Positions 23,416-42,032 of a stretch of DNA of 45,564 nt are shown in pieces. This DNA is from Pirellula sp. (lineage in GTDB: Bacteria; Planctomycetota; Planctomycetia; Pirellulales; Pirellulaceae). Where the stretch lies: the NCBI GenBank assembly GCA_021299695.1, contig JAJTEK010000054.1, positions 1 through 45,564 on the forward strand. The letters run 5' to 3'. The first letter of the stretch is position 1. Every line of letters starts with the position of its first letter. The position numbers were made by a program, and so were the translations under genes. A model generated the notes under the pieces. It saw only the letters and a program-made list of their open reading frames with translations. It did not search any database and was not told where the DNA came from.

Positions 23416-24794
23416 TCAATTCCCGGTGCGGTCGGCCCGGAGTATTCTTGGAAATCGACCCCAAGGTATCGCGAATAGAATTCGAAGACTTCGCGGATGC
23501 GTTGTTTCTGTTCCGTGGAGATCGAGGTGAACAAACGACGCCCCGAGGTGTCGACCCCGTAAGCTTGATTCTCCATGAAGTTGTACCTGATCGTACGGAT
23601 TTCAGGATCTGCATCGGGAGCAAAGTTCGGTGGTCCCCAAATCACATCCGGAGACCGAAGCGAGCGATCTTCTTGGATATCGCGGTGTCCGGGTTCTTGG
23701 CTGCTGCCAGGAAAATCCAATTGGAGCGCATTGGCGACCGTACGGATCTCTTGCTCAAGGATCGAGGAGAAGCTTCCGGTGATCGGCAACCCCGAATTGA
23801 TGTTGTAGGCGCCGCTGAGGAAGCCTTGTGGGTCGACTCCTGGAACATCGAACGGAACGGTTCCTGGATTGGTCACGGACGAAACCGGTGAATCGGATCC
23901 GATCCGTAGGCGGTACGTGCCGCTGCCACCGAGCGAATGGATCGGGCCTGCGAATTGAAGCGATGCCATCCGGGTTGCCGGATTGAAGGTCACTCGGATC
24001 GGATTGAAGACTCGATCGTCGAAGGGACTAACCGAATCGGCTGTTGCGATCAGGTTGTAAAAGCGAGGATCGACGACGGTCGGATCGGCAAGGGGCGCAA
24101 GATCCCCTGTGGAAATTTGCCGATCGTAGAGTTCCGAGTCGTTGAAATAGACCTCGATCGTATCGAGATCTTGGGAGAGCGTCCCGTTTGCATCGCGATT
24201 GAGGGGTTGGGGAACGATCGCCGTGATCTTCGAGCCGAGCTCGAGATTGAATACGTAGCTATCGCGGTCGGTTCCATTCTTACGCGGCTTGAGCGGATCG
24301 TTGGCGACGTTTCGAACGGCGTTGATACCTTGGGCTGGCAGATCCACTCCGAAAATCTCTACGTTATAGAGATCATCTGGAAGAGGTTGCGAGAACCGCG
24401 CGACGACGACGCGGCGGTTGGCCGCATCGGCAAAGTCGAGGTATTCGGGCGTGACGATGATATCCGACGAGACTCCTGCTGAGCCGAAGACACCGTCACC
24501 TCCAGAGCGCGAGATGCGGATCCCGCTTCGAAGGGTCGATTGGCGAACGTCATCGCCACCGGCAAAGCGGAAAATCAGTTCCCTAGGGGACTCACTGAGG
24601 GTGTTGGACCGAGTCGTCGAGAAAGTCTCGCCGGTATTCGGAGCGACCGACAGGAGACGGAAGTCTAGGTCGAGGATATCTCCTGCCATGACTTCGCGTC
24701 GCTCCAGATTCTCGCAAAGTATGTTGCGAAACCCGTTGCGTCGTTCTTGCTGCTTGGAACGATTGTTTGCTGATCTCGAAGCGTCAATTCCCAT
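23187..24794 (-). CDS. giant surface protein A, N-terminal part (frame-shifted)
   Basis: N-terminal fragment of giant gene A. I start it at ATG 24794 (MGIDASRS) and not at the upstream in-frame codon at 24824, because giant B begins with the matching MGIDESRS and both share the leader AAGG then AAATGGGAATTGA. Residues 1-29 are basic and polar, followed by LERREVM at 30-36; there is no classical hydrophobic signal peptide. Two Ig-like segments follow (SESPRELIFRF, LGSKITAIVPQP), then the start of the metalloprotease-like domain (RIREVFEFYSRYLGVDFQEY), collinear with B. After about GIER (near 23415) the frame becomes nonsense and stops at 23187, while the correct continuation (ISGPGDLLGVAG) is in another frame. 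Real coding in this frame therefore ends near 23410. Confidence 0.85.
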   Translation of the reverse strand: MGIDASRSANNRSKQQERRNGFRNILCENLERREVMAGDILDLDFRLLSVAPNTGETFSTTRSNTLSESPRELIFRFAGGDDVRQSTLRSGIRISRSGGDGVFGSAGVSSDIIVTPEYLDFADAANRRVVVARFSQPLPDDLYNVEIFGVDLPAQGINAVRNVANDPLKPRKNGTDRDSYVFNLELGSKITAIVPQPLNRDANGTLSQDLDTIEVYFNDSELYDRQISTGDLAPLADPTVVDPRFYNLIATADSVSPFDDRVFNPIRVTFNPATRMASLQFAGPIHSLGGSGTYRLRIGSDSPVSSVTNPGTVPFDVPGVDPQGFLSGAYNINSGLPITGSFSSILEQEIRTVANALQLDFPGSSQEPGHRDIQEDRSLRSPDVIWGPPNFAPDADPEIRTIRYNFMENQAYGVDTSGRRLFTSISTEQKQRIREVFEFYSRYLGVDFQEYSGPTAPGIERPSAALEISSASRAKRPTQMILLPPGIWSSSMVLNLGTMPLDSAFRKSLSAAKSSQITPSPKPVRLASLQPLCTK

Positions 24795-24851
24795 TTGAAC
24801 GAACCTTGGAACCGTACGGTACAAAAATGGAAGGTAATGGAAGAGTCAATA

Positions 24852-27900: not shown

Positions 27901-30900
27901 TCCTGGCATAATGATCGTGAACTTCGTCTCGTTGTCGATGCGATTGCTCTCGAGGAAGTTTCCTGCGTTGTCTTGGACTCCTCGGAGGTAGAAGCTGCTG
28001 AGTTCAGGGCTGATGCTCACAGCATTCTCGACAAAGAGAGTCGAACCACCACGAACCTTAGCGACCAGCGACGTACCGCCGGTTGCCGAGAGTCCGTTGA
28101 TCGCACGGATGATCGCATCGCGCATGTTGATCGAGCTGAACGATGGGTCCTGGATGAACATCACAGGAATCGCTCCGCCCGGAACACCCGTGCGACGCAA
28201 CGAAGGAGCGTTGTCGACGTTCGTCAGGTACCTGGCTGTGTCGAAGAGTTCGAGTCCCCGGCTGGTGATCTGGGAATCGAGGTTCAGGATCGACGACTTG
28301 ATCGTCGCCTGCATCGCTTCGTAGACCCGTTGTACCGAGTCTTGGTTGGTATAGCGGATCGGGACGCGAGACGGATCGCGACCGTTTCCAAGGCTCAGGT
28401 TCTCAAACTCAAACGTGACGGTGTTGGTTCCATCGGTGATGCTGAAGTAATCGCCATCCTGAGCGTTTCCGCGCGCTGTAGTCAGATTGCTATCGAGCAC
28501 GTTGACAGCCGCGTTTGCGAGCAGGCCGATATCGACTCGGCCGTTGCCAGCATCGCGAGCGTTGACCCCCAAGCCTGGGAAGGCGTTGATCGCCGCGATC
28601 ATCGCACTGACCACATCGTTCTGAGTCGAGGTACCGCCGAATCGAATCGTTCGGCTACCTGGGATGGTCGAACCGCTGAAGTTCCCATCGAATTCGAAGA
28701 TCGCAGTGATGTTTCGGTTCGTGATGGTAAACGACGTGTTGTCCGTCAGATCCGCACCGCCTCGGGGTGGAACTTGCAGGAGCAAGGTTCCGAAGATCTC
28801 CAAGTTCGTGCGGCCTTGGACTCCTGGTTGACCGAACAGGCCGACCGTCGGGGCATTGGCGACCGAGATCGAGTATTCCGAGGAGCCACCGATGATCACA
28901 TTCCCGTTGCCGACGTGCTGAGGTGCAAGCCCCAGACCGGCAGCGGCGATCGCAGCGGCCAGTGCTTGGCCGATTTGAGCTTGGGTGTCCGTCGGGCCAA
29001 AGAGCACCGGGATATTGCCTGCGGCGACCGCAGCATCGGTGGTGAATTCGAAGGTGGTCGTCGTGACCGATCCTGCGATGTTTCGCGAAATCGTGATCGT
29101 CTGGCCGTCTTGAATGGTTCGGGCCACGCCGACGATATTCAGTTCGGTGCTGACCACATCGACTCGACCTGCATTGGGCAAGGCTAGGTGAACGACGTTT
29201 CCATTGACGACCGTGGAGTTGATTGCAAGGCTCGAGCCATCGATAGCCACCTGGGTAGCCACAGCGACATCGTTGTCCGAGTTGGCCTGAGAGATATCCA
29301 CAAGCACATTTCCCGGTTGGGTTGTGCCATCGGAATCGTACTCAAAGACCACGGCGATTCTTCCGTCGGTGATGCTGAAGGTTTGTCCATCGGTGATACC
29401 ACCAGGACGAGTACCCAGCGACGGCACTCGCAAGCCGATGGTCGAATTGGGCTGTTGAATCGATGGAGCCGATTCGGTATCGACCGTCGTACCGATTGGT
29501 GCACCGATGAAGATGTTCCCGTCGTTCGTGAGGCTTGCGACTACCCCGGGTATTTGAGGGTTGTTGATCGCAGCGAGCAACGACGAGACAACCTGTTGCT
29601 TGGTCGAGAGCGAGGTGAACTGAATCACTCTTGCCGCTGGGTTGATGATGTTCGAATTGCTATCGAACTCGAAGGCGTAGGATGTTCCCCCGCTGAAGAT
29701 CGAGAATCGGTCGCCATCGAGGATTCCGCCCGCACCACCGCCTGCAAGGGGCAGGTTCAATTGCAGGCCTTGTGGGATCTGCAGGCGATACCCGCTATCG
29801 TATTCGAACGTCACGTTTCCGCCGTTGGAGTCTTTGATGGTGAAGCTATCCCCATCATTGATTTGATCGCCAGCGTCGGCATTGACTACAAAACGGTCCT
29901 TGTTGTTGATATTGATATCATAGACCTTGTTGTTTCTCCAAACTCCAGCCAGAGGCTTAAGCACGATCTCATTGGTGGTGGTGTTGTAGGAGAAGGCATA
30001 GTCGATACCTTCGACCAGAAGCCGACCGTTTTCGGTGATGGTCACCACCGAGCCTGGGAGGCGATTGCCGCCGGTTCGGCCGACAACCGAATCGTCGTTG
30101 ATGCCTGTTCCACCGCCGAGGTTGGCCGTTTCAAAACCATCCTTGAGTTGGATTCGGAATTCAGGATAGACACCACCGGTAAGCTGGATAATCGACTCGG
30201 TTTTGTCGCTGTCGACTTGTTGCGCATCGTTGTCGATCGGCACGAGCGACACGGCCGTCGGTCCGATGAAGTCCGCTCGGTCGACTGCACCACGGTCTTT
30301 GAACACGTTTGCACCCAGACCGCTCGGGGGAGCGATGTTCGGATCGTCGGCTCGGAAGATTCCGTAGAAGTCGCGATCGGGGGCTAGAATTGGGCTCGGT
30401 GCGACTCCAACTGCGGCTTTCACGCCGAGGAAGCCTTGTCGTTCTGGCAACGAGTTGATCGAGCTATCGATGATCTGGGAACCGCTTCCGGGTAGGAAGT
30501 TGTTTCCTGGGAAGTCGACCAAGAGTCTCTCGTTGTTGGCAGCGATGAAGTTAAAGTCCGAGCTGGTATTCGGAACATTCGTCGGGACCGCTTCGATGTT
30601 GCCCCAAGTCAAGTTCGAATCCGGTTTCGCTGGCTCGATGTACTGATAAGTGTTTCCGCCGACGATGACTGCCGAGGGACGAACTGAGGCTACAGGTCCT
30701 ATGATCGTACCTTCGTAAGCTGGTGGCTCCTGGACGATCGGACTTTGGACATTGATGAAGGTATTGTTCATCAATGTCGGCGTAGCGCCTGCAGAGATGG
30801 CGATACCGCTCTCAGGAATGAGTTGGTTTGCGTTGTTTCCGCCGGTTTGGCTGTTGATGCGACGCGAGAAACTTGAAGTGATCGAGTAGGCATTTCGAAC

Positions 30901-33900
30901 CACCACGAACTTCTCCGTCGTGCCATCACCTCGGGCGGTACCGAACGGACCGGACATCGTACGGTCATGACCAAAGCCCAGGGCCATATGGTTGGTACCT
31001 GGCGTGTTAGCAATGTCGAACGGCCCCCTATCGTTGGTTCCGTTCGGGGTTCTGTTCAAACCGGCTTCGAGTTGTGCCCCGCGGATATTGCCAGAGTTGA
31101 TTCCGAGATCCGGCCCGGCGGTATTGCTTGCCGTTGGGTTGTATCCGTTGATACCTCCGAGGGCAACTGCCGAGACAGGAGCCAGAGGGTTGGCAAACCC
31201 AAAAGCACCGTTTGCAAGGTTTTGGGCATTGCCCATACCGGCGTTGTTGATGGCTGCTGCGATTGCGCGAGCCACGTCAGGAACTCGGTATTCAGGACCG
31301 ATAAAGACAGGAATGTTGCTTCCTGAGACGGCTCCGGACCTTGTGAACTCGAAGGTTCTGGCGTTGTTGGTGGTGCCAACGAAGTCGGCAACTTGGCGGA
31401 TGGTGAACGTTTCCCCGTCGGCGTAGGAATTCACTTCGTCCACCGTGATGACAAACTGTTCGGGGCGAAGGACCTCGAGGGTCATCGTGTAATCACCACT
31501 GGTATCACCTCGGGATCGATCTGCGAACGAAAGCGGATCGTATGAGGTATTTCCAGAAGCGCTAACCGCAGCGTAGTAAACACCCGCCGTAGTCGCAGTG
31601 AAATCGATGTACGGATCCGATCCGAGGGATTCCCCAGGGGCCGCAACATTGTCGGCTGTGGTTGGATCGTTACCGTTGCTAACGATCTGAGCTACACCGC
31701 TTGCGTTGAAGATCTTCATAGCGGCGTTCAGAGAACCGGTGGAGTTCACATTGATCTTCACCCGCTCACCGATCTCGAGTTGGAACTTGTAGAGATCCAC
31801 ATCGGAGGAACCGGTCGATAGCGGATCGGCAGTCAGCGTACCATCGACTGAGTACTGCTGTGGATTGATGCCAACACCTTGGAATGTCTCGACGGCACCG
31901 GCGATGGTGTCATTGGTTTCCGAATCGAGGCGAACACCAGCCGAAGCTGCGCGTCCGTCGTTCCCGATGAAGGTATTGTTGACAACACGAGCGAATGGTG
32001 ATGCAGTGAATTCGCCAACACGTTGGATCTGCATCGGAGTGTTTACCCCTACGATGTATTGGGGGCCTCGCACTACGAGAGTCGCCGAAGGGTAGGTCCA
32101 CGTAAGCGGGTCGGCCGGATCGCCCACGATCACAGGCGTTTGAGGTTCGATCCAGGTGGAGATACGTTGGGTCGTACCGTTGGTAGTAAGCACACTTCCA
32201 TAGAACGAGTCCCGAATGGACTTGATCATCTCATCAGCCGCGTAGCCTGAGGGAGGAGGTGGAGAACCTTGACGCAAGTAAAGTGAACCACCGTCTTCTC
32301 GATAGTAGATCGGGATAAAATCAGGAGCCCATCCGTTACCGCCAACGATACCACTTCCGAAAAATGGGGCTGCAGTGGTCGCACCTGCGATGTCTTCAAA
32401 TTCGAAACGAACCCGAGTGCGTGCCAAACCGACTTCAAGCCTACTGGGGATCGCGTCGTCGAAGAAGAAGCCGGCGTGGGTAGCTTCGTCATTGACGGCA
32501 GCCGTGTCTGCACGACCGGGTCGAACGGTTAGTCTCCAGGTCGGCGTTTCGCCTTGGATGTTCACACCGCCGAGTCCCGATTCGTCGAAGATGTTGTTCA
32601 TCACGACGATGCCCGGGGTGACCCCTGCTCGTTCTGCGACCGATCCGGGAGCCACTCCAAATGGAACCGTGTTGGCCACCGGCAAGTTCCGTGTGTAGAC
32701 ACCACCGAGGGTCGGTGGCAGGGTCAGGTTCGTAGTCCCCAACGCGTTTAGCCGCGCTTGTTGTGCTCGTCCGCTTGCATAGTACTTGTCCGACGGAGCC
32801 GTCCAGACGGCAAAGTCACGGCTCTTGGTAATCACATTGTTCGAAACAATGAATTGCCCTTGGTTGCGAGCGATATTTTGATCGCTTGTACCATCGAAGC
32901 GTTGGATGCCAGAAACACCTGCAACGGTAAAGATATTCGACGGATCGATGACTTCGACGTTTCCGAACAGGTCGATAATCCCATTGCCGTTGCCGCTGAC
33001 AACCCGATTGCTGTCCGCCGCGCGAACATTGAGTTGCTTTTGTTGGAAAAGCTGATTGATGATGTCTCGGAACCTATCCCCGAGGCGAGCCGGGCTATCG
33101 GTGGCCGAGTAGAGAATTGGGATGTTGCCAAAGTTGACCGCGCCGGTGCGGGTGAATTCCAACGTCACACGGTTGGCTCCGTCGGTCACATCGACGGTGC
33201 TTCGATCCGCAATGGTCAATCCAGGTAGGAATTCAACCGTGGTGCTGTAGGAACCACGGTAGTTTCTCGGAAGGGTTGTCAGTTGATCCCCCCCGCGAAT
33301 CTCCATTTGATAAACACCCGCCTTGGTCGAGAAGACTTCAGCGTCGGTCACGATGACCTCGTAAGTTCCTCGTCGGAGTTCATCGGCGCCTAGGAAGCTC
33401 AGGAACGGGTCACCCGTTCCGACCGACCCTCGGGTCAGATCCACCAAATCCGAACCGGACAATGGACCTGGCAGGTCATCGACAATTGCCGAACGGGTTC
33501 GGTTCGTCGGATTGACGGGGATTCCAGGAGTGGTCGGGTCATTGTCGTCGTCCAAGAGGACTTGGACGTTGAGCCGCTTGCGGTTTAGACCATCGGCGTA
33601 ATCGACATCGATGATGACAGGGTAAGTCGCCGTGAAGCTTGGGGTTCGAACGTATTCACTCGTCAAATCCCCGACGGTGAATCGGAAGCGATTGCTTCCA
33701 CCGGCAAGCGTTCCAGCGACGCTGATTGCGCCTTTGTTGGTCAGGTGCAAAGGTCCAAGGTCAGTGATGCCATCGGTGGTCACACCGTCGTACATCGCCG
33801 AGTTGGCTTCGCCCGTCAGTGGCGAGTTGTTTGGCATTCCATTGATTTGGATGCCGTTGGTCGCATAGCGGATATCGGCGTACTGAACGGTCGAGCCACC

Positions 33901-35574
33901 GAACTCTTGTTGATCGCGCAAGCGGATTTGGGCCGTGTAGGAACCGGATGTGATCCCTGCGGCAGGATTGTCGATATTGGTGCTCTTGGAACGGACCCTA
34001 AAGAAGTAGGTGCTCGGTGCTCCTGGAAGACCTGGGAGCAAGACACGCAAACCTGCATCTTTCGAGTTGGTCGTCCCATCTTCCTTGAGCAATCCCGAGG
34101 CATTTCGACGGGCTGTCGAACGAGTCCTTTGGACGATTGGATTGACATGGTCAGGGTTGATCGACGGATCCTTGAACAGCAGCGATGGGTTGGTTTGTTC
34201 GGCGGTGCTATCATCGCTCCGAGCCAACAGGTCCCCATTGGCATTGAGGATCTCGATGACCGTATCGAGGCTCACTTGGGTGTAATCGATGTCGAACCAA
34301 ACCTCGGTTCCAGCCGTTCCGCTGAAGCTGTAGAGGTCTTGATCGGCCGGTTCGCTCAATACACCTTGGATAGTAAACCCAAGGAAAAGATTTTCGTCCG
34401 TGGTGGAGGTATCTGGGGCCAAGGCACCGAGGAACTGTGCCGAGAGGACCGAGTCATTGATTCCGGGGGCGACTACCGTTCTGGATTCGGTTTCAATCAC
34501 CGTCGCTACATTGCGATCGTTGCTGAACGAATCGAACAGCAGGCTGCGCCAATCGCCGGTGCGTGGAATGCTTGCGATACCATCGTTGTTCGTATCGGTT
34601 TGCGGACGACCGTCGGGTTGCGTACCTGCGCCGACGCTATCGTCGCGAAGGCTCGTCAGAACGACAGGGAAACCTGGCATACCGAGGACTTGCACCGTAC
34701 CACCGACCCGATCGCTGATGCTCGAGAAGTTACCCGTTGCGATCAGTCCTGTGCCGCGTTCTTGGTCAAAGTTCGAACCTTGACCTTCCATTTTCACCAC
34801 GAGCGATTCGTTGACAGCGCTCTGCAATCGGAGTCCTCCGACTTGCTGTAGGTTTCCAACGGTGACCGATTCGAACAGCACGTGCACGATATCGGTATCG
34901 TCCCAAACGCTATCGGTCGTCAGGTTATTGCGTTGGAGATCTCGGACAGCCAAGTTATCTTCATCGCGGTCGTTGGTCGCGGCATCGGCTCGTATTTCCA
35001 ATCCGTTGATGCTGTTGTTGAAGAGGCGATTTCCTCGGAACAGCGGTCCACGGTTCCAATCGACCGTCTTATCGCGATCCACGTTTCCAGTTTGGCGACC
35101 GAGGTCTCCTCGCAGTTGTGCATCCATCGAGTTTGCATCAATGGTGATGGCCGTCCCATTGTTGTTCTGGAACACGTTATTCAAAAAGATCGGCTGGGTA
35201 CCGCGTGCAAAGACCGTCGAGCCTCGGCTGTTGTTGTTGCCGAAAGGGTAGTTCTCATTCGCAGGTCGACCCAAGCGGTCGATCGGGCCTTGGCCTCCCA
35301 TCCCGTTGCCATTATTTTCGAAGACCGTGTTGACGATCCGTGCGGTGGCTTGCTGCAACTCGACCGGGCTGAAGGCCTTGAAGGTACCTTCGAGCCGCGA
35401 GATCCCGCCGGAGTAAGCGATAACTGAGTTATCAAAACTCAGGTTTGCACCTGGTGAGGCATAGATACCGCTCCAGTCCTGTTGGCGAGCATCGCCCGCA
35501 CCGTTGAGACCATTGTTGTTGGTATCGAACGGGCCAACATCTGGGTGCTGTGCCCAAGCTCGATCCTGGAACCT
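24904..35574 (-). CDS. giant surface protein B, C-terminal part (after frameshift)
   Basis: Main part of giant gene B (whole gene 42032 to 24904, about 5,700 codons). The frame opens after a TGA at 35575-35577 and is credible from PDVGPFDTNNNG (about 35540). The first ATG (35358) sits inside a beta-helix repeat. Order: beta-helix block; PPC-type segment (DQDLYSFSG); FFRVRSKS and STVQYADIRYATNG segments exactly like A; more beta-helix; another PPC segment (DVDLYKFQL); at least seven 'DG-x-F' modules; ELDYGDAP (about 27890) and GEVEDY (about 27380); about six cadherin-like repeats (27340-25440); a dockerin pair; and an acidic tail ending LLDMFGE. Giant A is collinear through most of this length. 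The role is likely extracellular and structural or adhesive; no catalytic site was seen in this part. Confidence 0.9.
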   Translation of the reverse strand, partial: RFQDRAWAQHPDVGPFDTNNNGLNGAGDARQQDWSGIYASPGANLSFDNSVIAYSGGISRLEGTFKAFSPVELQQATARIVNTVFENNGNGMGGQGPIDRLGRPANENYPFGNNNSRGSTVFARGTQPIFLNNVFQNNNGTAITIDANSMDAQLRGDLGRQTGNVDRDKTVDWNRGPLFRGNRLFNNSINGLEIRADAATNDRDEDNLAVRDLQRNNLTTDSVWDDTDIVHVLFESVTVGNLQQVGGLRLQSAVNESLVVKMEGQGSNFDQERGTGLIATGNFSSISDRVGGTVQVLGMPGFPVVLTSLRDDSVGAGTQPDGRPQTDTNNDGIASIPRTGDWRSLLFDSFSNDRNVATVIETESRTVVAPGINDSVLSAQFLGALAPDTSTTDENLFLGFTIQGVLSEPADQDLYSFSGTAGTEVWFDIDYTQVSLDTVIEILNANGDLLARSDDSTAEQTNPSLLFKDPSINPDHVNPIVQRTRSTARRNASGLLKEDGTTNSKDAGLRVLLPGLPGAPSTYFFRVRSKSTNIDNPAAGITSGSYTAQIRLRDQQEFGGSTVQYADIRYATNGIQINGMPNNSPLTGEANSAMYDGVTTDGITDLGPLHLTNKGAISVAGTLAGGSNRFRFTVGDLTSEYVRTPSFTATYPVIIDVDYADGLNRKRLNVQVLLDDDNDPTTPGIPVNPTNRTRSAIVDDLPGPLSGSDLVDLTRGSVGTGDPFLSFLGADELRRGTYEVIVTDAEVFSTKAGVYQMEIRGGDQLTTLPRNYRGSYSTTVEFLPGLTIADRSTVDVTDGANRVTLEFTRTGAVNFGNIPILYSATDSPARLGDRFRDIINQLFQQKQLNVRAADSNRVVSGNGNGIIDLFGNVEVIDPSNIFTVAGVSGIQRFDGTSDQNIARNQGQFIVSNNVITKSRDFAVWTAPSDKYYASGRAQQARLNALGTTNLTLPPTLGGVYTRNLPVANTVPFGVAPGSVAERAGVTPGIVVMNNIFDESGLGGVNIQGETPTWRLTVRPGRADTAAVNDEATHAGFFFDDAIPSRLEVGLARTRVRFEFEDIAGATTAAPFFGSGIVGGNGWAPDFIPIYYREDGGSLYLRQGSPPPPSGYAADEMIKSIRDSFYGSVLTTNGTTQRISTWIEPQTPVIVGDPADPLTWTYPSATLVVRGPQYIVGVNTPMQIQRVGEFTASPFARVVNNTFIGNDGRAASAGVRLDSETNDTIAGAVETFQGVGINPQQYSVDGTLTADPLSTGSSDVDLYKFQLEIGERVKINVNSTGSLNAAMKIFNASGVAQIVSNGNDPTTADNVAAPGESLGSDPYIDFTATTAGVYYAAVSASGNTSYDPLSFADRSRGDTSGDYTMTLEVLRPEQFVITVDEVNSYADGETFTIRQVADFVGTTNNARTFEFTRSGAVSGSNIPVFIGPEYRVPDVARAIAAAINNAGMGNAQNLANGAFGFANPLAPVSAVALGGINGYNPTASNTAGPDLGINSGNIRGAQLEAGLNRTPNGTNDRGPFDIANTPGTNHMALGFGHDRTMSGPFGTARGDGTTEKFVVVRNAYSITSSFSRRINSQTGGNNANQLIPESGIAISAGATPTLMNNTFINVQSPIVQEPPAYEGTIIGPVASVRPSAVIVGGNTYQYIEPAKPDSNLTWGNIEAVPTNVPNTSSDFNFIAANNERLLVDFPGNNFLPGSGSQIIDSSINSLPERQGFLGVKAAVGVAPSPILAPDRDFYGIFRADDPNIAPPSGLGANVFKDRGAVDRADFIGPTAVSLVPIDNDAQQVDSDKTESIIQLTGGVYPEFRIQLKDGFETANLGGGTGINDDSVVGRTGGNRLPGSVVTITENGRLLVEGIDYAFSYNTTTNEIVLKPLAGVWRNNKVYDININNKDRFVVNADAGDQINDGDSFTIKDSNGGNVTFEYDSGYRLQIPQGLQLNLPLAGGGAGGILDGDRFSIFSGGTSYAFEFDSNSNIINPAARVIQFTSLSTKQQVVSSLLAAINNPQIPGVVASLTNDGNIFIGAPIGTTVDTESAPSIQQPNSTIGLRVPSLGTRPGGITDGQTFSITDGRIAVVFEYDSDGTTQPGNVLVDISQANSDNDVAVATQVAIDGSSLAINSTVVNGNVVHLALPNAGRVDVVSTELNIVGVARTIQDGQTITISRNIAGSVTTTTFEFTTDAAVAAGNIPVLFGPTDTQAQIGQALAAAIAAAGLGLAPQHVGNGNVIIGGSSEYSISVANAPTVGLFGQPGVQGRTNLEIFGTLLLQVPPRGGADLTDNTSFTITNRNITAIFEFDGNFSGSTIPGSRTIRFGGTSTQNDVVSAMIAAINAFPGLGVNARDAGNGRVDIGLLANAAVNVLDSNLTTARGNAQDGDYFSITDGTNTVTFEFENLSLGNGRDPSRVPIRYTNQDSVQRVYEAMQATIKSSILNLDSQITSRGLELFDTARYLTNVDNAPSLRRTGVPGGAIPVMFIQDPSFSSINMRDAIIRAINGLSATGGTSLVAKVRGGSTLFVENAVSISPELSSFYLRGVQDNAGNFLESNRIDNETKFTIIMPGVELDYGDAPDPFTTTLGRYPTLKANDGARHVVSNSGLQLGPGVSTESEGKPQPAGDGDENDDGVSFRFQANTFTATQTPMFNKNVDTELTVTLSAPGLLNGWIDFNFDGDWSDPGENVFDGVVFSATNLTQTLRVRVPATAPNVPVATTSFARFRVSTEGTQTPVGLALDGEVEDYRVTIVPGTPPVGVNDTYTMNEDQFGGLVTNDPFDSDGFPGNNGVLANDINPDRKPLSARLVTPPTNALVFQFRADGTFDYIPNPDYFGQDSFVYIVTDGVLDSLLPATALINVRPVNDPPIAGNLTYTIDEDQRLDIPGSVVIAASVPGPANESDQSLTILSVDALSARGGSVRFIGGLITYVPLANFVGNDSFTYTIIDNGITGNLPDPLTAVGTIFISVLDKNDPPVTTNKTLNTDEDVPVSITIDDLIAGDTVGPADEQLIQTLSFSGLINPTAQGGRVEIVGNRVVYYPPSHFNGVDTFRYLVTDDGLSNGQPDPQTSQGTVTVNVAPVNDPPFVLRPFGTVTVLEDSPEQEYILSEFFSDPDIVTNGDVLTYRIASNSNTGLVEPTFAGGKMFVRPKADQNGQATIVVEAMDLAGLKTTNTLRLVVTPVDDDPRLVSPLPDRTVSEDSLPLVFDLSPGFFFDPDVINGDFLTFTATSSNTNVATVSILGNKIQLTLVPNASGQTTITVVATDTTSRFVSDSFILTVTPVNDAPVAMPDSYATPQGVTLVTTDPLGILTATTLDDGVLANDRDPEGDAMTASIVSGPTRGTVTLNPNGTFTYTPGPTALFGSTDTFTYRAIDAFGAASPQTTVTITIGRAPAPVYQNPSQQWDVNADGFISPIDVLILVNLLNSRGSSIPVAGLPGPPDYVDVNGDNFVTPLDVLAVVDKINSMSGSGEGEQFVGINTAPRVDSMVVEVGRGLGSSAQIPAWAGMMGSRNLNAAKLAAMPLASMFANNSWDDDFDDLAGLMGSQPKNTGELNDKNSSIDQALLDMFGE
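25215..25426 (-). other. dockerin-type repeat pair, C-terminus of giant B
   Basis: DVNADGFISPIDVLILVNLL and DVNGDNFVTPLDVLAVVDKI form two EF-hand-like loops with calcium-ligand Asp/Asn positions intact. They are preceded by a QNPSQQW lead-in, matching QNPTNRF in giant A. The tail after the pair differs from that of A apart from a shared SGSGEG linker. Confidence 0.9.
28340..29870 (-). repeat. cluster of 'DG-x-F' modules in giant B
   Basis: At least six tandem modules of roughly 80-110 residues. Each begins with a DGxxFTI-like strand and a VTFEFD-like strand, then usually an IPVxF or RxIxF strand, a helix of the type DTxAQIxxAIxAAI, and a closing GNGxVxIG strand. Starts are near 29865, 29725, 29395, 29125, 28760 and 28460. 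Further single copies are at about 31430, 33220 and 37680 in B, and at about 17030, 15990, 14320, 14220, 13390 and 13050 in A. I do not know a family name. The layout resembles the flagellin 'hook IN' motif. Confidence 0.7.
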
Positions 35575-38500
35575 TCAAGCTTGGCGATCAGGCCTGGGTC
35601 CATGACCAAGGATGCATCGAATCGCGGACGGACGTTTCCGGAGGTTTCCACACTCAGGGCGCCCGGCAGCGAGGTGCCATTATCGACGAGGCTGCTGATG
35701 GCTGGATCTCGAAGATCCGCCACGAGGGTATAGGGCCCAACACCACCGACACTGCTGCGGTAGATTCGTCGTCCAGCGTATCCGGTCTGGACTCCAGGAA
35801 GCGAGGTTAGCCGGATCGAACGGTTCGCAGGAATCGCACCGACGGCCGCGGTGGTCGTCGCCGATCCTGTCGCGTTCGATGCAAGACTTTCTCGACCCAT
35901 CGCGTCGACCATCACTACTCTGTAGTTGAACGCGCCGATCGGCAGGGTGCCACCGGCAATCGCATTGACGCCGACGGAGCTGACGACGGGCCGATCTCGG
36001 AGCAATGTCGCAAGCGCATCGCTGGGGTCCGAGAGCAATCCACCACGATCGGTGTAGGTCGTCGAGGTACCATCGAGTTCGGCGACCAGCCGGTAAGGAC
36101 CACCGACCGAATCGTTTCGGTAGAGTCGCCTGGAAACATATTCGCCAGAAACGCCCGGCAAACCGATGAATCGCACTGCGGTTTGTCCACCGCCGAGCGT
36201 TAAGCGTGGCGTGGCTTCCGAGGGAGGTGTTTCGTAGCCGTTCTTGTCGACAAAGGTCAACTTGTATTGGTAATCCCCTGGGGTCAAGTTCCCGCCCAAG
36301 GATGGGGCAAGGGAGATCAGATTCGAGGGCGCGATCGTGTTATCGAGCAGTCCGCCGCCTGGGTTGCCCGATACGACGATGTTTTCCGAGATCACGTGGA
36401 CGATATCGGTGTCGTTGAAGCGCCCCGGAACGGTCAGTTGTTTCAGTTCGCTTCCGGCCAGAGTCGAGACCTTGATGAACAAACCATTGATCGAGTTATT
36501 GATCAACAAGTTATCGTGGATCTCAGGTCCTACGCGATCGTAATCAGGGGTAAAGGATCCCTTGCGCTGGAACCGGTGATCGCTGAAGAGAGTTTCTTCA
36601 AAGCTATCGGGTGTGGCGCTCATGGCCGAATCGGCCCCTAGGGTGATCCGGTTGAAGGTCACCGTGGGACGCATGTCAGCAATCTGGATGCTATTGACGG
36701 TCTGCTGCACCGAATCGATCACGACCGAACTCGAACCGCCGTAGCGGATGTCTGCGTAATTGACGTACTGGCGGAAGACTCCTTCGTCCTCGAGGTCAAA
36801 GCGACCTACGGATCGGTCCAGATCCCTCTTGAAGACCAGTCCACCCCAATCGCCCGGAGCCGGAGTGGTGTTCGGCGCGTAGTTGTCCAAGCCGATCGAC
36901 TGATCGAGCCAGGAGGTGAAAAAGACACTGCCTGAGATGTCTGAGCCATCTGCGGCGCGGAGCGCGTTGCCGCTACGGTCAAGCAACTTGGGGGTCCCTA
37001 GGACCTGGAGTGCACCGCCGCTGCGATCGACACCCAGAGTCGAACTACCGACACCGATGCGGCTGCGACGCATCTTGAAGACGGTCCCTGCATCGACCAT
37101 GACGCTCACGCCTTTGGGCACGTCCATGGTCGATCCATCCGAGAGGACCGATCCGGCCAGGACGCCGAAGCCGACTTCGTAGGCAAAGTTATCCTCAACG
37201 GTTTCGAGTCGACCGTCGGCACCGCCGTTTCCAACGATGCGAACGATATCGCCAGGAACGCTGGCTGAAAACGCGTTGGCGACCCCGATTCCCGATATGT
37301 TATTGAAAGGTTTCGTCAGCGAACCATCTGCGTTGGGGCCTGCGGACTTGTCGACGAAAATCGTCTTGCCCGAAAGATCGATCGCCGTGAGTCCATTGGA
37401 GAGTTGGACCAGTCGCTCGCCGCGCAGCGTGATGCGGGCTCCGTTGGCCACTGCGGTGACACCCAATTCGGTGCGGGAGTTGATCGCGTTGGCAAGCGAG
37501 TTTGCGAGATCCGCAGCGGTGCTGTTCGAATTGAAAATCACGGCAGTATTGCCGATTCCCACGAGCGGATCGAGACTGAATTCAAAGCGCCGGACAGTGC
37601 CGTTTGCACCGGTAATCGTCACAATACGGGTATCTAAAGCCGCATTTCCACCGGAGTTGAATCGCATGACACGATCGACCGGTCGGGTCTCAAACCAGAA
37701 GTTGTAAATACCACCTGGGACTCCGTCTCCATCGCCGTCGAAAGCGACATTCAGATCGCTCGATCCATTGTCGACGTCTTGCAACGAATCGGTACCATCG
37801 GTCTGAGCGCGGAAGGCAACCCTCAAGTCGTAGCGACCTTGGGTTCGTCCACCCGTACCTGTTCCGGGCACCGATGCATCGTATTTGTCGTTGCCCGACG
37901 AGGAGATCCCGATGAAGTACACACCCGAATCGAGATTCATTCGAATCAGGGAGTCTTTGCCGAAATAGTCATCGTTTTGGGCGATGAGATTGACGTTGCC
38001 GCCGGTAAGGATAATCGGCGAGTAAGTGATATCTCGATTGCCGATACGGGTGGTCCGATCTCCCTTGAGCAAGTCAACTTTGACGAGGCTGCGAGCCGAG
38101 GGGTCGTTGTCCAGCGCGCGGAGGAATTCGTCGAGAGTCGATTCGCTACCCACGGTTGCATTCAAGTCGATCGAGATCGCATTGGGGAATGTATTGACGA
38201 TCGGTTGGGCGCCGACACCGCGGTTCGAGCGCGTGACGAATACCAAAAGGTTGTTGCCTTGCTTGCCGGGCTTGACTGCGGTGAACTTGACTTCGATTCC
38301 GCCGCCAGCTCCCATGTTTGAAACAGCACTGGCTTGGGTCTGTTTGTACAGAGCCAATCGGGTATCGAGTGGACTGCTGTTCTCGAGTCGCTCGGCCAGC
38401 GATTCGACCACCAAGGAACCTTGGCGGGATTGCCCGTTGGGTCCAAAGTCGATATCGAAGCGATACAGATCGATGTCGCTGCTTTCGGGTCGGTGCAGGT

Positions 38501-41500
38501 AGCTTGCGCGGAGCACATCGAGGTTGCCTGGGAAGACAGGTTCGTAGTTCCGATTGGTGCTGGTCGGGAAGTTGATAAAGCCAGCGTCGAAGTTCATCAG
38601 AGTCGAGGGATCGGCATCGCCTGCTCGGGCCAGACCGAGCATCAGTCCGATGCTAGCCATAGCGGCCCGAGTGAAGTTCTCTCCGTAGTTGTCGTTCCAG
38701 GTGTTGTCGGCCGAGAAGACCGCTAGGCTGTTTTGGTAAGCAGGATCGATACGTACGCCCCAACCACCGCTGGCGGCGTTTTCGACCGTAAGCCCACCCG
38801 AGGGCAAGGCTGCCAGTGCACCGAGGGCCATGGTAAAGCCGCTGTCGGGTGTCTCAACGAATTGGACACCGACGTACTCCGACCAGAGCGAGAAGGCTTC
38901 TCGGACACGGGCCCGTTGTTTTTCCGTGATCGCATTGGATTGCGCTGTCCCGGCAACGGCACCATAGCCATCCTTGAAGTTGTAATAAATCGTTCGGATG
39001 CCTTGGAAGTTATCCCCGGTAAAGGCCGGGTTGATGTAGTTCTCGAAGGCTTCTGGAACACTGCGAGTGCCCGGGTCATTGTTCGCGCCGATGAGGTCCA
39101 ACGCGTGGACTTCCGGATCGATGCTCGAGGTCAGCAGCAAGCTCGTCAGGGGAACATCCTTCGATCCGATCGTTCCGAGGTTCGTCGATGTATCGAACGA
39201 GGAACCCAGGCCGACTAGGGAGATCGGCGAGTAATTAATCACGCGGTTGCCCACGACGGTACTGCCGTTGCTACCGGGTTCGAGAGTGACGGTCATCAGA
39301 GGCGAGGAGACCGTCGAGACGTTCATCGCATCGGCGATTTCGTTGGCCGTCACATCCGCACGGACCATGTCGACGACAATCACTCCGCCGACACTGGTGA
39401 CCGTTGGAGTACCACCTGAGAGGGAGTTGACGAACGAGATCTGCAATCCCGAGCCGTTCTCACCGAGGGTCTTGGCGGTAAACCGAAGCTTGACGGCTCC
39501 GTTGGTGTTCAGGTCCGAGATGGCCGTTGCAGCGGTTTCATTCCGCACTGGTGCAAACGGTGTGGTCTCACGGGTTCCGATCCGGAGTCGGAAGCTACTT
39601 GCAGGAATGAATGGGCCTGGGAGCAGATCGATATCCGAAGAGAACCGAAGCGTGGCGGTGTTGGCCGAGGCGTTGTACGTCACTCGCTCGGGCTTGAACG
39701 TGATATCGTCGGTATTTCGAACGGTGTTTGCCGTGTAGAGCAATTGATAGAAGTCAGGATTCTCAGCGCTGCCTACGGTGGGGTTGCCGAGCGCATCATT
39801 TTCGACGAAGAGTTTTTCGTTATCGAAGTAAACAACAATCGTGTCGCGGCGTTGTTCGAGAACCCCCGCGACATTGCGAACTACAGGTTGCGGAACCACT
39901 GCAGTGACCTTGGAACCAAGATCGATGCGGAATTCAAGTGTGTCTTGACGCGTGTTTGCATCGCGAGGAACGAAAAGATCGCCGGTGGAATTGCGAAGCC
40001 CGGTGATACCTCGGAGCGTGTCGTCAAATCCGTAGACTTCCAAGCGATAATTATCGTCGGGAAGGTTCTCGGCAAAGCGCAGGGTGACTTCGTTTTCGTT
40101 CGGACGATCCCCGATGATGACCGCACCTGGAACGATGATTACGTCATTGCTCCGGGCGAGCAAAATCGGCGAGTAACCTACAGGGTCGACCGTCCCTAGA
40201 ACCGTCGATGCAAAACCGCCATTGATCTTCGCCGAAAGCTTAGGTGCTACCGGAGAGGATGGGGAGTTGATCAGATCGACCAACTGCTGCGCGGTGATTG
40301 TCGAGCCGACACGGGAGTTGAGCACGAGGCTGATGGTGTTGCCCGTCAGGCTCAATTGCGGAGGAGCCCCGATCCCTAAATCAGCCCGGGCAACATCGAT
40401 CCGAAGCGAATCGGTCGCGTTGCGTGAGGTCAATTGAATATCGACCTTTCCGGTGGTCCCAAAGTCGCTCGAAACGCTCGGCAGACCGAACGATCCGTCG
40501 CTACCGGCACGCGTGACGCGAATACCGCTGACGGTCGCCGGATCGATGATCTGGGCGTCATCGAATCGGAATGTCAACTCGCGAGGAGAAACCGTTCGGA
40601 CCGAACCGTTTTCGATCAGCTCGCTATTGTTGGGTTGAACGCCGATCAAGATCGGGCCCGTGGAGGTCGTCGCGTCGGCTTCGACTCTGAGGCTATACAT
40701 CTGCGTTTCGCCAGCAGCGCCGGCCAAGACTCGCAGGAAGTAGGCTCCTGGGCTGAGGCTGGGGCTCTGCAAGATTTCAGGCAAACCGGCAGGGCTCGAA
40801 TTGGCTACCGCGACGACTTCGCCGCTGATGCGCTCGATCTGAAACGAAAGATTCCTATTGATCAGCGTATTGACCGTCGAGATCTGTCCACCCTGCGGAC
40901 CGACGTCGTACTGAAGACCTTCAGGGATCAGCGTAACTCGCTTGAGCTTGGCATTTCCGATCGTGAAGAGAAACACATCGGTGTCTTCGCTTCGGTCGAT
41001 CGAAAGGTTATTGAATTGGTTGACGCCGTTGCCCAAAAGACCGAGATTCGAAGCTTGGCTCGTCGCGTCGTTTTGCTCGTAGGTATCGCCGTAAAGCGTT
41101 TGGGTAGCGAGGATATCGTCGTGCTGTGGTCCGAAGTAAGCGAACGAGACAAATGGCTCCATCAGCTTGGTCTGATCGGTCGGTATCACGTGACCGAGCC
41201 CGATCCCGTGCCCGATCTCGTGAGAGAGCACGTTGATCAAACCACGGTTCTCGCCCGTAGCGCCATCGGAACTGAGCTGATAGAAATTGTCCGACGTATC
41301 GATGACCATGTCGCCATCGGTACCGTTGTTGCCACTACCCGTCGGGTAGAACGCAAAAGCAAGAATACCCGAATTGCCGTCGATCGTGTTGCCACCGACG
41401 CGCATGTCACCACGCACACCAATCACACCGCGCGATGCTGCACCGTAGGCCGCACCATCGTCGATCGGTTCGTAGATGAAGTTCAGACCTGAGAGACTCG

Positions 41501-42032
41501 CCCAGTTGTCATAAGTTCGACGGACCAGATTGAACCATGGCCTATTGACCAAAGGCCCAGGGGCAGAACCATAGATACCGTCCATGAACGAGATAAAGTT
41601 CGATGGAGCCAAGCCACCACCGACGGTGGTGACTTGCGTGCCATCGGGAACGATACTCCAGGAGACCGTAGCCGGATCGCCGTTATTGGGACTCGAACCC
41701 CCTACAGGGTTGATCCATCGGTTCCCAGAAAGATTGATGTTGCCCCCGCCGTTGGCGCCACCCGCACCCCCGAGAAGATTGGCACCGCCACCGCCGCCAC
41801 CACCGTTGGCACCACCTTGGTTCTGACCGCCGTCGCCAGAACCCAGGAGCCTGAGCTGATCGGTCATTCTTGCGAAGTACGCTGGATCGGTGCCTGCATC
41901 GAAGATGCCAGCAGCATCCATCACCTCCCGACGTTCCAGATGTTCGCATAGCAATGAGCGGAAGCTCAAGCGACGCGAAGACCTCTGCTGCGAAGGGTGA
42001 CGGTTCTTGGACCTGGATTCATCAATTCCCAT
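35439..42032 (-). CDS. giant surface protein B, N-terminal part with matrixin domain (frame-shifted)
   Basis: Starts at ATG 42032 (MGIDESRS) with an AAGG ribosome site 13 bases upstream. LERREVM is at residues 32-38, then a Gly/Asn-rich linker (about 70-100), then a matrixin-like zinc protease domain (about 105-300) with HEIGHGIGLGH at 271-281 and a Met-turn-like LMEPF at 290. A PPC-type domain follows (DTDVFLFTIG), then Ig-like segments collinear with A. A second protease-like domain has lost its zinc ligands (see 38625-38657). A PPC domain, beta-helix blocks and two Fn3-like 'GPYxLVA' units complete the part. Three copies of one roughly 100-residue module are inserted at sites where A has none. 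The frame turns to nonsense near 35545 and stops at 35439, although the homologous sequence continues in another frame. It is probably the secreted, promoter-proximal partner of A. Confidence 0.9.
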   Translation of the reverse strand: MGIDESRSKNRHPSQQRSSRRLSFRSLLCEHLERREVMDAAGIFDAGTDPAYFARMTDQLRLLGSGDGGQNQGGANGGGGGGGANLLGGAGGANGGGNINLSGNRWINPVGGSSPNNGDPATVSWSIVPDGTQVTTVGGGLAPSNFISFMDGIYGSAPGPLVNRPWFNLVRRTYDNWASLSGLNFIYEPIDDGAAYGAASRGVIGVRGDMRVGGNTIDGNSGILAFAFYPTGSGNNGTDGDMVIDTSDNFYQLSSDGATGENRGLINVLSHEIGHGIGLGHVIPTDQTKLMEPFVSFAYFGPQHDDILATQTLYGDTYEQNDATSQASNLGLLGNGVNQFNNLSIDRSEDTDVFLFTIGNAKLKRVTLIPEGLQYDVGPQGGQISTVNTLINRNLSFQIERISGEVVAVANSSPAGLPEILQSPSLSPGAYFLRVLAGAAGETQMYSLRVEADATTSTGPILIGVQPNNSELIENGSVRTVSPRELTFRFDDAQIIDPATVSGIRVTRAGSDGSFGLPSVSSDFGTTGKVDIQLTSRNATDSLRIDVARADLGIGAPPQLSLTGNTISLVLNSRVGSTITAQQLVDLINSPSSPVAPKLSAKINGGFASTVLGTVDPVGYSPILLARSNDVIIVPGAVIIGDRPNENEVTLRFAENLPDDNYRLEVYGFDDTLRGITGLRNSTGDLFVPRDANTRQDTLEFRIDLGSKVTAVVPQPVVRNVAGVLEQRRDTIVVYFDNEKLFVENDALGNPTVGSAENPDFYQLLYTANTVRNTDDITFKPERVTYNASANTATLRFSSDIDLLPGPFIPASSFRLRIGTRETTPFAPVRNETAATAISDLNTNGAVKLRFTAKTLGENGSGLQISFVNSLSGGTPTVTSVGGVIVVDMVRADVTANEIADAMNVSTVSSPLMTVTLEPGSNGSTVVGNRVINYSPISLVGLGSSFDTSTNLGTIGSKDVPLTSLLLTSSIDPEVHALDLIGANNDPGTRSVPEAFENYINPAFTGDNFQGIRTIYYNFKDGYGAVAGTAQSNAITEKQRARVREAFSLWSEYVGVQFVETPDSGFTMALGALAALPSGGLTVENAASGGWGVRIDPAYQNSLAVFSADNTWNDNYGENFTRAAMASIGLMLGLARAGDADPSTLMNFDAGFINFPTSTNRNYEPVFPGNLDVLRASYLHRPESSDIDLYRFDIDFGPNGQSRQGSLVVESLAERLENSSPLDTRLALYKQTQASAVSNMGAGGGIEVKFTAVKPGKQGNNLLVFVTRSNRGVGAQPIVNTFPNAISIDLNATVGSESTLDEFLRALDNDPSARSLVKVDLLKGDRTTRIGNRDITYSPIILTGGNVNLIAQNDDYFGKDSLIRMNLDSGVYFIGISSSGNDKYDASVPGTGTGGRTQGRYDLRVAFRAQTDGTDSLQDVDNGSSDLNVAFDGDGDGVPGGIYNFWFETRPVDRVMRFNSGGNAALDTRIVTITGANGTVRRFEFSLDPLVGIGNTAVIFNSNSTAADLANSLANAINSRTELGVTAVANGARITLRGERLVQLSNGLTAIDLSGKTIFVDKSAGPNADGSLTKPFNNISGIGVANAFSASVPGDIVRIVGNGGADGRLETVEDNFAYEVGFGVLAGSVLSDGSTMDVPKGVSVMVDAGTVFKMRRSRIGVGSSTLGVDRSGGALQVLGTPKLLDRSGNALRAADGSDISGSVFFTSWLDQSIGLDNYAPNTTPAPGDWGGLVFKRDLDRSVGRFDLEDEGVFRQYVNYADIRYGGSSSVVIDSVQQTVNSIQIADMRPTVTFNRITLGADSAMSATPDSFEETLFSDHRFQRKGSFTPDYDRVGPEIHDNLLINNSINGLFIKVSTLAGSELKQLTVPGRFNDTDIVHVISENIVVSGNPGGGLLDNTIAPSNLISLAPSLGGNLTPGDYQYKLTFVDKNGYETPPSEATPRLTLGGGQTAVRFIGLPGVSGEYVSRRLYRNDSVGGPYRLVAELDGTSTTYTDRGGLLSDPSDALATLLRDRPVVSSVGVNAIAGGTLPIGAFNYRVVMVDAMGRESLASNATGSATTTAAVGAIPANRSIRLTSLPGVQTGYAGRRIYRSSVGGVGPYTLVADLRDPAISSLVDNGTSLPGALSVETSGNVRPRFDASLVMDPGLIAKLEGSRIELGHSTQMLARSIPTTMVSTVRAMLANRTGAVSMPHQVQT
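37994..38309 (-). repeat. inserted module copy 3 in giant B
   Basis: About 105 residues from GGIEVKFTAVKPGKQG to YSPIILTGGN. It sits inside a PPC-type domain: the flanks ALYKQ and QNDDYFGKDSL align with TLLKRD and VNNNYISQDSL of giant A, where nothing intervenes. It shares the GNxL, IxIDLN and NYSPIxL signature positions with copies 1 and 2. Confidence 0.75.
38625..38657 (-). other. degenerate zinc site in second protease-like domain of giant B
   Basis: Residues 1126-1136 read ASIGLMLGLAR where giant A has HEIGHLLGLDH. The flanks AM before the site and the LMLGL core align without gaps. All three zinc His and the catalytic Glu are replaced (by A, L, R and S), so this domain cannot bind zinc in the usual way and is probably non-catalytic. 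Confidence 0.85.
39210..39503 (-). repeat. inserted module copy 2 in giant B
   Basis: About 98 residues from GAVKLRFTAKTLGENG to YSPISLVGLG, lying between an Ig-like segment ending in FRLRIGT and the following linker. Giant A passes from YRLRIGS to the linker directly. It shares with the other copies the order: VxLxFTA strand, GNxL/GSGL turn, strand ending in GGVIVVDM or similar, helix with DAxN, and VGNRxINYSPI. Confidence 0.75.
40150..40456 (-). repeat. inserted module copy 1 in giant B
   Basis: About 102 residues from GKVDIQLTSRNATDS to YSPILLARSN. It falls between VSSD and VIIVPG; in giant A the same flanks (VSSD and IIVTPE) are directly joined. All three copies end in the same 11-base stretch ATCGGCGAGTA as read on the plus strand. 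I do not know a family name. Similar strand-helix modules occur in phage tail and planctomycete giant proteins. Confidence 0.75.
41190..41222 (-). other. intact matrixin-like zinc site of giant B
   Basis: HEIGHGIGLGH (residues 271-281) fits HExxHxxGxxH exactly, with LMEPF ten residues on as a Met-turn. The preceding domain has ISFMDGIYG and PWFNLVRRTYDNWASLSGLNF segments. The site is N-terminal and upstream of the frameshift, so it would be made even from the interrupted gene. Confidence 0.9.

Follow-up and report, generated by a model that had tools for sequence, protein, structure and literature searches.

A candidate surface-decoration domain, related to flagellin and FliD repeats, at three fixed sites in the head of planctomycete giant proteins

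The window analysed here, a stretch of 45,564 nucleotides from Pirellula sp., encodes two giant proteins, A and B, both of which are interrupted in the present assembly and lie on two open reading frames (ORFs) each. The original prediction, made from the letters alone, was that a module of roughly 100 residues sits three times in B at sites that are empty in A, having spread recently within that one protein. This raises the question of what the module is, and when and how it came to occupy three places in one giant and none in the other. The front end of the giants is a recurring head composed of two Ig-like domains, a matrixin-like domain and a PPC-type domain, and the features concerned are as follows.

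35439..42032, minus strand: N-terminal ORF of giant B (P0001, 2197 aa), with Peptidase_M10 as its only Pfam domain
24904..35358, minus strand: continuation of giant B in another frame (3484 aa), with PPC, GEVED, cadherin-like/Big_9 and dockerin domains
41088..41405, minus strand: N-terminal matrixin (Peptidase_M10) of giant B, HEIGHGIGLGH intact
40473..40658, minus strand: host block U, opening part of the Ig-like domain, preceding site 1
40152..40487, minus strand: module copy 1 (site 1), within the first Ig-like domain of B (profile search; model mce3299454baf)
39513..40151, minus strand: host block S, from site 1 to site 2, sharing 40% identity with A 23850-24470
39207..39536, minus strand: module copy 2 (site 2), within the linker that joins the second Ig-like domain to the internal matrixin-like one (profile search)
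38838..39137, minus strand: host block D2, where the internal matrixin-like domain begins, the zinc motif of this domain being missing in B
38337..38507, minus strand: host block P1, opening part of the PPC-type domain, preceding site 3
38001..38339, minus strand: module copy 3 (site 3), within the PPC-type domain of B (profile search; model m3e86845c932b)
37803..38000, minus strand: host block P2, later part of the PPC-type domain, following site 3
23187..24824, minus strand: N-terminal ORF of giant A (P0003, 545 aa), sites 1 and 2 empty
6283..23334, minus strand: continuation of giant A in another frame (P0004, 5683 aa), site 3 empty
24459..24479, minus strand: empty site 1 in A (AGVSSD/I), by alignment, from P0003 aa 116-122
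23850..23894, minus strand: empty site 2 in A (linker after RLRIGS), by alignment, from P0003 aa 311-325
22825..22881, minus strand: empty site 3 in A (LLKRDSLTGQLSIVSVNNN), by alignment, from P0004 aa 152-170

Three in-frame segments of one homologous domain, at sites with clean boundaries, are indeed seen in the minus-strand ORF of B. Their three places had been predicted correctly and their extents had not: in the genome profile search each module reaches some 30 bases further at its 5' side, since the start that the copies share (A/S-x-x-S/T-D) is part of the module. Similarity among the copies goes beyond chance by BLASTP (copy 2 versus 3, E 6e-7; copy 1 versus 3, E 9e-5; database size 1e6); copy 1 versus 2 was unreported at this size and reached 0.16-0.17 at best in a three-sequence search. 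Alignment also recovers the expected module-free junctions in A (SAGVSSD/IIVTPE, RLRIGS/linker and LLKRD.../VNNNY). The window's own A was scored by HMM at sites 1 and 2 only, because A is broken, and the emptiness of its site 3 is read from alignment.

Structure models give the module pLDDT values of 84-97 (by tens) within PPC-type and Ig-like hosts, and in these models it is a separate alpha/beta domain inside host domains. The claim that one insertion lies inside a PPC-type domain holds in the predicted model of copy 3, with beta strands on both sides of the module; copy 1 likewise lies inside an Ig-like domain in its model. The host of copy 3 is named PPC-type by resemblance, Pfam PPC being without a score in P0001. 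For the host of copy 1, Foldseek returned PcoC (1lyq/1ix2, probability 0.97-1.00, E 5e-3 to 7e-2), with targets of about 100 residues spread over 233-250 columns at an rmsd of 6-11 A (residue-level alignment not displayed). This pattern is as expected for a predicted Ig domain of the CopC/SbsA type interrupted by one insertion. No structural relative of the module itself was returned by Foldseek at E<=0.001 with either model. The three window copies have no above-cut-off match in Pfam, NCBIfam or PHROG, and among 40 modules compared with Pfam no family rose above cut-off, including any splicing or nuclease (intein-type) family. The best single Pfam match (Secretin, 1/40, E 4e-4) and the best hit of the module in an hmmsearch of PDB chains (a secretin, PilQ, E 0.57) are presumed to reflect chance.

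We then consider how the domain is distributed over the family. Heads were fetched from two lists (n=120, 94 + 26), with fragments, places at contig ends and repeats excluded by eye, and 80/88 relatives were taken in. Across 123 family heads the domain recurs at these three sites, with 0, 1 or 2 copies per site. Written as copies at sites 1, 2 and 3, the patterns are 000 (47 heads), 200 (30), 111 (11), 011 (7), 001 (5), 010 (5), 100 (4), 210 (3), 101 (2) and 110 (2), the remaining 7 rows being cut off at one or two sites; in two of the 001 rows (L060, L070) a weak site-2 module appears under a laxer search. Gap lengths are nearly discrete at site 3 (6-34 or 117-134 aa), and at site 1 they are 0-15, 102-127 or 224-242 aa, apart from five of 44-51 aa, which hold no module. 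Site 2 is a linker and takes other domains too. Spread limited to one protein, as first proposed, is contradicted by same-site orthologues in other genera, by a third paralog of the same genome with two tandem copies at site 1, and by the occurrence of the domain at E<=0.001 in 132/199 family genomes. Heads with three copies occur in other genera (L058, L061) and in 27/80 named loci. Within the window's own genus, L054 (= L200) is missing the site-2 copy alone; L059 and L202 are likewise without it.

A relative of the module was found in flagellar proteins. The module profile A4 matches central repeats of planctomycete flagellins and FliD caps (assigned as such by Pfam for L167, L168, L171 and L182, by eye for L169 and L174). 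In the reverse direction, an HMM built only from flagellin/FliD repeats, whose source proteins were selected because A4 had matched them, was run against the ORFs of 121 loci and the window giants: all 114 matches at E<1e-3 fall on modules, which make up 13% of the residues in module-bearing ORFs and 3.5% in all ORFs. At E 0.001-0.05, 22 matches fall on modules and 1 off, and at E 0.05-1 the numbers are 8 and 18. Trained on other genomes only, the same HMM matches a copy in B (aa 848-927, E 1.3e-9). The hhalign value of module against flagellin/FliD repeats is 98.3%, compared with 0.1-1.9% for controls (ten comparisons, five scaffold blocks). Profile similarity from either side, over most of the domain, thus shows homology between the module and the central repeats of flagellin and FliD. 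These central repeats, of about 95 residues each, lie like the module between conserved host segments and are placed in series in surface proteins. They differ in that the host is a filament or cap, that one to nine stretches per protein are matched, some of them partial, and that by eye they lack the YSP[IL]xLxG end seen in the window modules. Since Pfam finds neither a flagellin nor a FliD domain in P0001, giant B is, judged from its sequence, a homologue by module and not a flagellar protein. Flagellin_IN (PF07196, 55 positions) shares the flagellin/FliD context; 3/40 modules match it weakly at E<=1 (best E 0.019), none of the 40 reaches its gathering cut-off and the three window copies have no match. 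It lies apart from the full-length repeats in L167 and L168 and overlaps one partial stretch in L171. Kinship with the second repeated beta module of the giants (DGQTxTI...FEF) was not accepted, at an hhalign value of 20.6%.

Module trees bear on the age of the copies. In a 150-copy tree, site labels change 17 times, compared with 90 in shuffles and a possible minimum of 4; the imperfect grouping involves the first copy of the tandem pair (7 changes) and site-2 copies (8 changes), and the B site-2 group does not include L058_2 or L079_2. In a 68-copy tree, the B copies form one group for each of site 1 (support 100/98, three genera), site 2 (100/99, four genera) and site 3 (89/92, five genera). 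Because the B copies sort by site across three to five genera, each was placed before those genera diverged. On this 68-copy tree, of 112 columns and with bootstrap values that had not settled, a single clade of all site-3 copies has p 0.028, one of all site-2 copies p 0.076, and one of all B copies is not rejected (AU p 0.264), so that B may have had one donor or several and an old spread confined to the B lineage is conceivable. A common origin for every site-3 copy is thus nominally rejected, one of the site-2 copies is not, and repeated colonisation of one site by modules receives modest support from these sequence comparisons.

We give a probability of about 0.8 to the following reading. 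The module is an alpha/beta insert domain of about 110 residues, autonomous, exposed at the surface and outside any named family. It would be an ancient domain of surface decoration, which came into permissive loops of a protease-type head and has been inherited from then on. Three fixed sites of the head would accept the domain with the host fold undisturbed. The B-type head would have gained its copies after its split from the A-type head and before several genera of the family diverged; each copy would then have passed vertically at its own site, sometimes being lost cleanly, and copies would on the whole change faster than their host. Other paralogs and lineages would have acquired copies at these sites too, either one copy or a tandem pair, and probably did so separately. 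The route by recombination, and the order and number of the first insertions, we infer: copies most likely arose by in-frame duplication through recombination between giant genes, and a duplicated insert would be kept where its two ends can meet in a loop. By analogy with the outer domains of flagellin and FliD, the module most likely serves for decoration or binding on a secreted adhesin/protease head.

A wider reading is tentative. It holds that an unnamed fold has entered the same permissive loops repeatedly and independently throughout one bacterial class, copied by recombination between giants, and that its hosts may include giant adhesin/protease heads, cadherin-like giants and flagellar surface proteins. 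If this is true, surface heads could be retrofitted by adding or removing one exchangeable part.

The state of the zinc site suggests another possibility, which we regard as unlikely, namely that insertion was part of a change from protease to pseudo-protease or binding head in which occupied heads lost the zinc site. Raw counts favour it: the full HExxHxxGxxH motif is present in 14/78 occupied and 43/67 empty heads, and in the window A has the motif (HEIGHLLGLDH, in its continuation ORF) while the internal matrixin of B is without it. Against it, independent pairs on the tree (145/152 heads entered, any site) gave 0.7 the same way, 0.3 the other way and 4.0 with no difference, of 5, too few informative pairs to reach 0.05. 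The link between occupancy and zinc loss is thus clear in raw counts and unseen in independent pairs, at low power. In addition, heads have gained the module and kept the zinc site, both in family f17 of another order (full motif in 8/9 occupied heads) and in L080, L096, L097, L106, L116 and L120.

Rather than B gaining modules, the common ancestor of A and B could have held them and A could have lost all three, a scenario to which we assign little weight. Loss of a single copy does happen, as in L054, and the domain occupies the same sites in f17 (L163-L166, L172, L173, L176, L177, L179). However, A-type orthologues proved empty in 23/23 rows of the A clade, site 3 requires three changes on the host tree, and the f17 copies (L163, L164, L172, L173, L176, L177) do not group with same-site B copies in the 68-copy tree. 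Outside the family, a strong module match (E<=1e-10) was found in 9/46 genomes that have the head and was missing from 37/46, with 10-15 candidates scored per genome. Of 29 outgroup heads read individually, 9 had been fetched because they bear modules and the 20 others have none; the latter are a biased sample, picked after the module-bearing ones, and the 46-genome count points the same way. With 9/46 outgroup genomes matched and the A clade empty, gain on the B branch is the more parsimonious course, in agreement with the original prediction that the modules came after the two giants diverged.

The recency of that spread is a different matter. We consider it improbable that the domain spread recently within giant B of this lineage, once A and B had been duplicated. 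Consistent with it, A is empty at all sites, and a single clade of B copies survives the AU test above; copying within one protein may also happen, since in L089/L092 a protein's site-2 and site-1b copies are each other's closest kin (44-46% identity, weak support). However, the window copies are only 29-35% identical to one another, and so not recent, whereas same-site copies from other members of the genus are 42-100% identical to them. Copy-copy identity is also below the A-B scaffold identity of 41%, the reverse of what had been proposed as a sign of recent spread. The phylogeny of the copies likewise contradicts it, each copy going with same-site orthologues in other genera and the sites grouping separately in both module trees, as do the three-copy heads of other genera and named loci.

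A phage-derived or mobile-element-borne cassette is very improbable: the M1 model matches phage proteins in BFVD (five at E<=0.001, best 1.4e-5, query-length TM-scores 0.24-0.34), matches that may reflect the Ig host, and there is one weak Pfam match to SPP1_Dit (E 0.051), but weak negatives came from IMG/VR (no confirmed match, pattern scan only), 50,697 phage records (copy 2 as single query) and 72,556 plasmid records (copy 3 as single query), module GC (0.58-0.59) resembles that of host blocks (0.54-0.59), and the site-2 junctions printed for four sequences show no DNA-level trace of mobility.

Planctomycete giant genes are poorly annotated, and no description of the module or of such insertions in these giants was found in literature titles and abstract starts. 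The locus provides a countable, site-resolved case of domain insertion, with one domain, three fixed sites, 0-2 copies and both empty and occupied orthologues, and it names a testable surface domain common to giants and flagella. How whole domains enter loops with the fold unbroken could be approached through sister genomes and through insertion or removal of the module in a recombinant head. Among known systems, flagellinolysin is described as a metallopeptidase inserted in the flagellin variable region (PMC5595980); it resembles the present case in that a secreted protein carries an added domain in a permissive region of its surface, but its insert is an enzyme, whereas Pfam recognises no enzyme domain in the module. 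Giant flagellins of Oceanospirillales are reported with a duplicated DE region, and Blastopirellula marina is named as a planctomycete with a giant flagellin (PMC6248924); by description only, that region resembles the module as a repeated insert enlarging a surface protein stepwise. A paper on giant Pirellulaceae genes (PMC7717043) infers roles in adhesion or glycosyl hydrolysis, and its passages on them describe no inserted module. The Stieleria varia genes Pla52n_17480, 17490 and 17500, annotated there as Tandem-95 repeat, uncharacterised and Matrixin, bear three consecutive numbers and may represent the same kind of locus.

The original prediction placed three segments in giant B. All three are present and in frame in a minus-strand ORF, each a copy of one domain of about 110 residues (the module). 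The relevant features are:

6283-23334, minus strand: long ORF of giant A, with six stretches that match another repeated beta module, of the DGQTxTI...FEF type
24904-35358, minus strand: one of the two ORFs of giant B
35439-42032, minus strand: the other ORF of giant B, holding the three segments; the two B ORFs together have nine matched stretches of the DGQTxTI...FEF module
38508-38837, minus strand: internal matrixin of giant B, without HExxHxxGxxH
43025-45562, plus strand: divergent ORF, by its start a putative DNA mismatch repair protein MutS

Kinship of the DGQTxTI...FEF beta module with the three modules was not supported. Searching with an HMM built from the three copies revealed no clear additional copy in A or B (next-best stretches: E = 0.027 in A, 0.089 in B). 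Elsewhere in the window's genome, which totals 5.49 Mb in 229 contigs, it revealed two further copies at E<=1, both in tandem within a third giant on contig C216. The three paralogs were labelled A, B and C. Giant C has the same head (two Ig-like domains, a matrixin-like domain and a PPC-type domain); its two copies both occupy site 1, and neither site 2 nor site 3 has one. Within B, copy 2 matches copy 3 with E = 6e-7 and copy 1 matches copy 3 with E = 9e-5; the pairwise match of copies 1 and 2 by themselves is not significant. Between B's copies and those of C, identity is 28-38%. Pairwise identities among B's own three copies are 29, 34 and 35%, against 41% for the A and B scaffolds, which argues against the recent spread within B after its split from A that had been proposed, since copies more alike than A and B would then be expected.

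We took 120 homologous heads from genus and family genomes, many of them fragmented, using scaffold query A2 (built from A and B), which may overlook distant paralogs. Adding C and the window's two giants brought the total to 123 rows, in which the module and five host blocks (scaffold stretches flanking the sites) were placed by HMMs. Compared at the protein level, with DNA junctions printed at site 2 only, the same three sites recur in all 123 rows and insert size steps by one domain. Forty-seven heads have no module, 37 carry two copies at site 1 and 20 carry one there; in five, site 1 holds 44-51 residues that contain no module. Judged by length and by eye across the 123 rows, neither site 1 nor site 3 shows any other apparent domain. 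The linker that forms site 2 is filled in other paralogs by segments resembling PPC, by a beta module of another kind, or by a metalloprotease-like stretch several hundred residues long (names from reading the sequence, without a search). In an overlapping set of 80 named loci, the copies at sites 1, 2 and 3 follow the pattern 111 in 27, 011 in 14, and 001, 200 and 000 in 7 each, the remaining 18 being mixed or cut. This set spans Pirellula, Rhodopirellula, Stieleria, Roseiconus, Roseimaritima and others, with the same pattern repeated.

In a careful tree of 68 copies, the B copies at site 1 form one group across three genera (support 100/98), those at site 2 one group across four (100/99) and those at site 3 one group across five (89/92). 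Since each site has one group across genera, every copy in the window has long resided at its own site. Grouping by site is imperfect in a tree of 150 modules, with 17 changes of site label (shuffled mean 90, least possible 4). Relative to the window, four loci of its genus (L045, L048, L051, L054) have modules 50-71% identical and host blocks 71-74% identical. L054 is missing the site-2 copy alone, with a plain linker instead, and reads as a clean loss because it nests among occupied relatives. In L089 and L092 the site-2 copy is closest to a copy within its own protein, the one at site 1b (44-46%, weak support), and copying within one protein is possible. The B copies may go back to an old single spread within the B lineage, which was not rejected (AU p = 0.264).

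Outside the family, 46 genomes had the head at E<=1e-6, and nine of these (G313, G317, G373, G380, G400, G419, G425, G435 and G447, all of f17, a family of another order) matched the module at E<=1e-10 in a comparable draw of 297 genomes. We read 29 outgroup heads, nine picked because they bear modules and 20 picked later among unfetched places, so that these 20 are not an unbiased sample. The nine f17 heads have modules at site 1 (twice), site 2 and site 3, and three of them also carry one at a fourth position, between the first and second Ig-like domains; the 20 later heads have none (L266 is cut off at site 3). Because modules also sit in outgroup heads, the head-plus-insert arrangement is not confined to the family. 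On the 152-row tree with outgroups, none of the 23 rows of the A clade has a module or any sign of former ones; for the window's own A the HMM scores cover sites 1 and 2, and its site 3 was empty by alignment. The minimum number of occupied/empty changes on this tree is 7 at site 1, 12 at site 2 and 3 at site 3.

The three copies received no family name from Pfam, NCBIfam or PHROGs, and a PDB sequence search with the module gave nothing significant. Among 40 diverse modules compared with Pfam, single modules match unrelated families weakly (best Secretin, 4e-4), and Flagellin_IN matches three (best 0.019). Of 297 genomes sampled from the class, 61 match profile A4 (40 rows) at E<=1e-4, and 31 of these belong to the window's family; in a phylum-level draw of 246 genomes, 7 match. 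Many weaker matches fall in ORFs of about 740-1330 residues; of four such ORFs scanned, two proved to be flagellins, with Flagellin_N and Flagellin_C, and two to be FliD proteins, with FliD_N and FliD_C. In the reverse test, an HMM from flagellin and FliD repeats only, seeded by one FliD repeat, gave 114 matches at E<1e-3 in giant heads, all 114 on modules. Profile-profile comparison of module and flagellin/FliD repeat gave 98.3%, against 0.1-1.9% for the five scaffold blocks. Planctomycete flagellins and FliD (L167, L168, L169, L171, L174, L182) have a related repeat in their central region, in one to nine matched stretches. This kinship with flagellar outer repeats suggests that the module may serve in surface decoration or binding.

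Two AlphaFold2 models, PPC-type and Ig-type, made from the window and the named loci, predict the module with confidence. With a mean pLDDT of 81, the PPC-type model gives it the order strand, short helix, three strands, helix, strand; the Ig-type model (88) is similar without the short helix. Foldseek identified no structural relative of the module with either model. Its best PDB matches to the Ig-type model are CopC/PcoC copper proteins, with borderline E-values (5e-3 and above) and high rmsd; targets of ~100 residues align across ~250 columns, as would be the case for a CopC/PcoC-like domain interrupted by the module.

Giant B begins with a matrixin whose zinc motif is intact, followed by the head, and continues with PPC, cadherin-like/Big_9, GEVED and dockerin domains, a make-up of the secreted adhesin/protease type. 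In a published account of Stieleria varia, consecutive giants are annotated Tandem-95, uncharacterised and Matrixin, and the giants of that species are inferred to act in adhesion or as glycosyl hydrolases (PMC7717043). Giant A retains the internal motif HEIGHLLGLDH (P0004, aa 47-57). In raw counts across heads, loss of the internal zinc motif goes with module occupancy; a tie between module gain and protease loss was not borne out in independent pairs on the tree, a low-power test.

Compared with the closest genome (L183 and L037 on one contig of G177, with about 95-97% DNA identity and ORFs reported to be 5738 and 6199 aa long), both giants are frame-broken: the window is without 67 bases at 35531/35532 and 34 bases at 23417/23418, which may reflect either an assembly error or a true loss. 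The giants L180 (G001:C93; Cadherin_4 by Pfam) and L170 (G216:C65) also carry modules in series, adjoining Cadherin_4 or Laminin_G_3 domains, with no matrixin head within the fetched stretches (7.2 kb for L180). In L165 (G419:C217), a module is apparently split by about 290 residues (ORF aa 109-172 and 458-532), and something appears to be inserted inside the insert.
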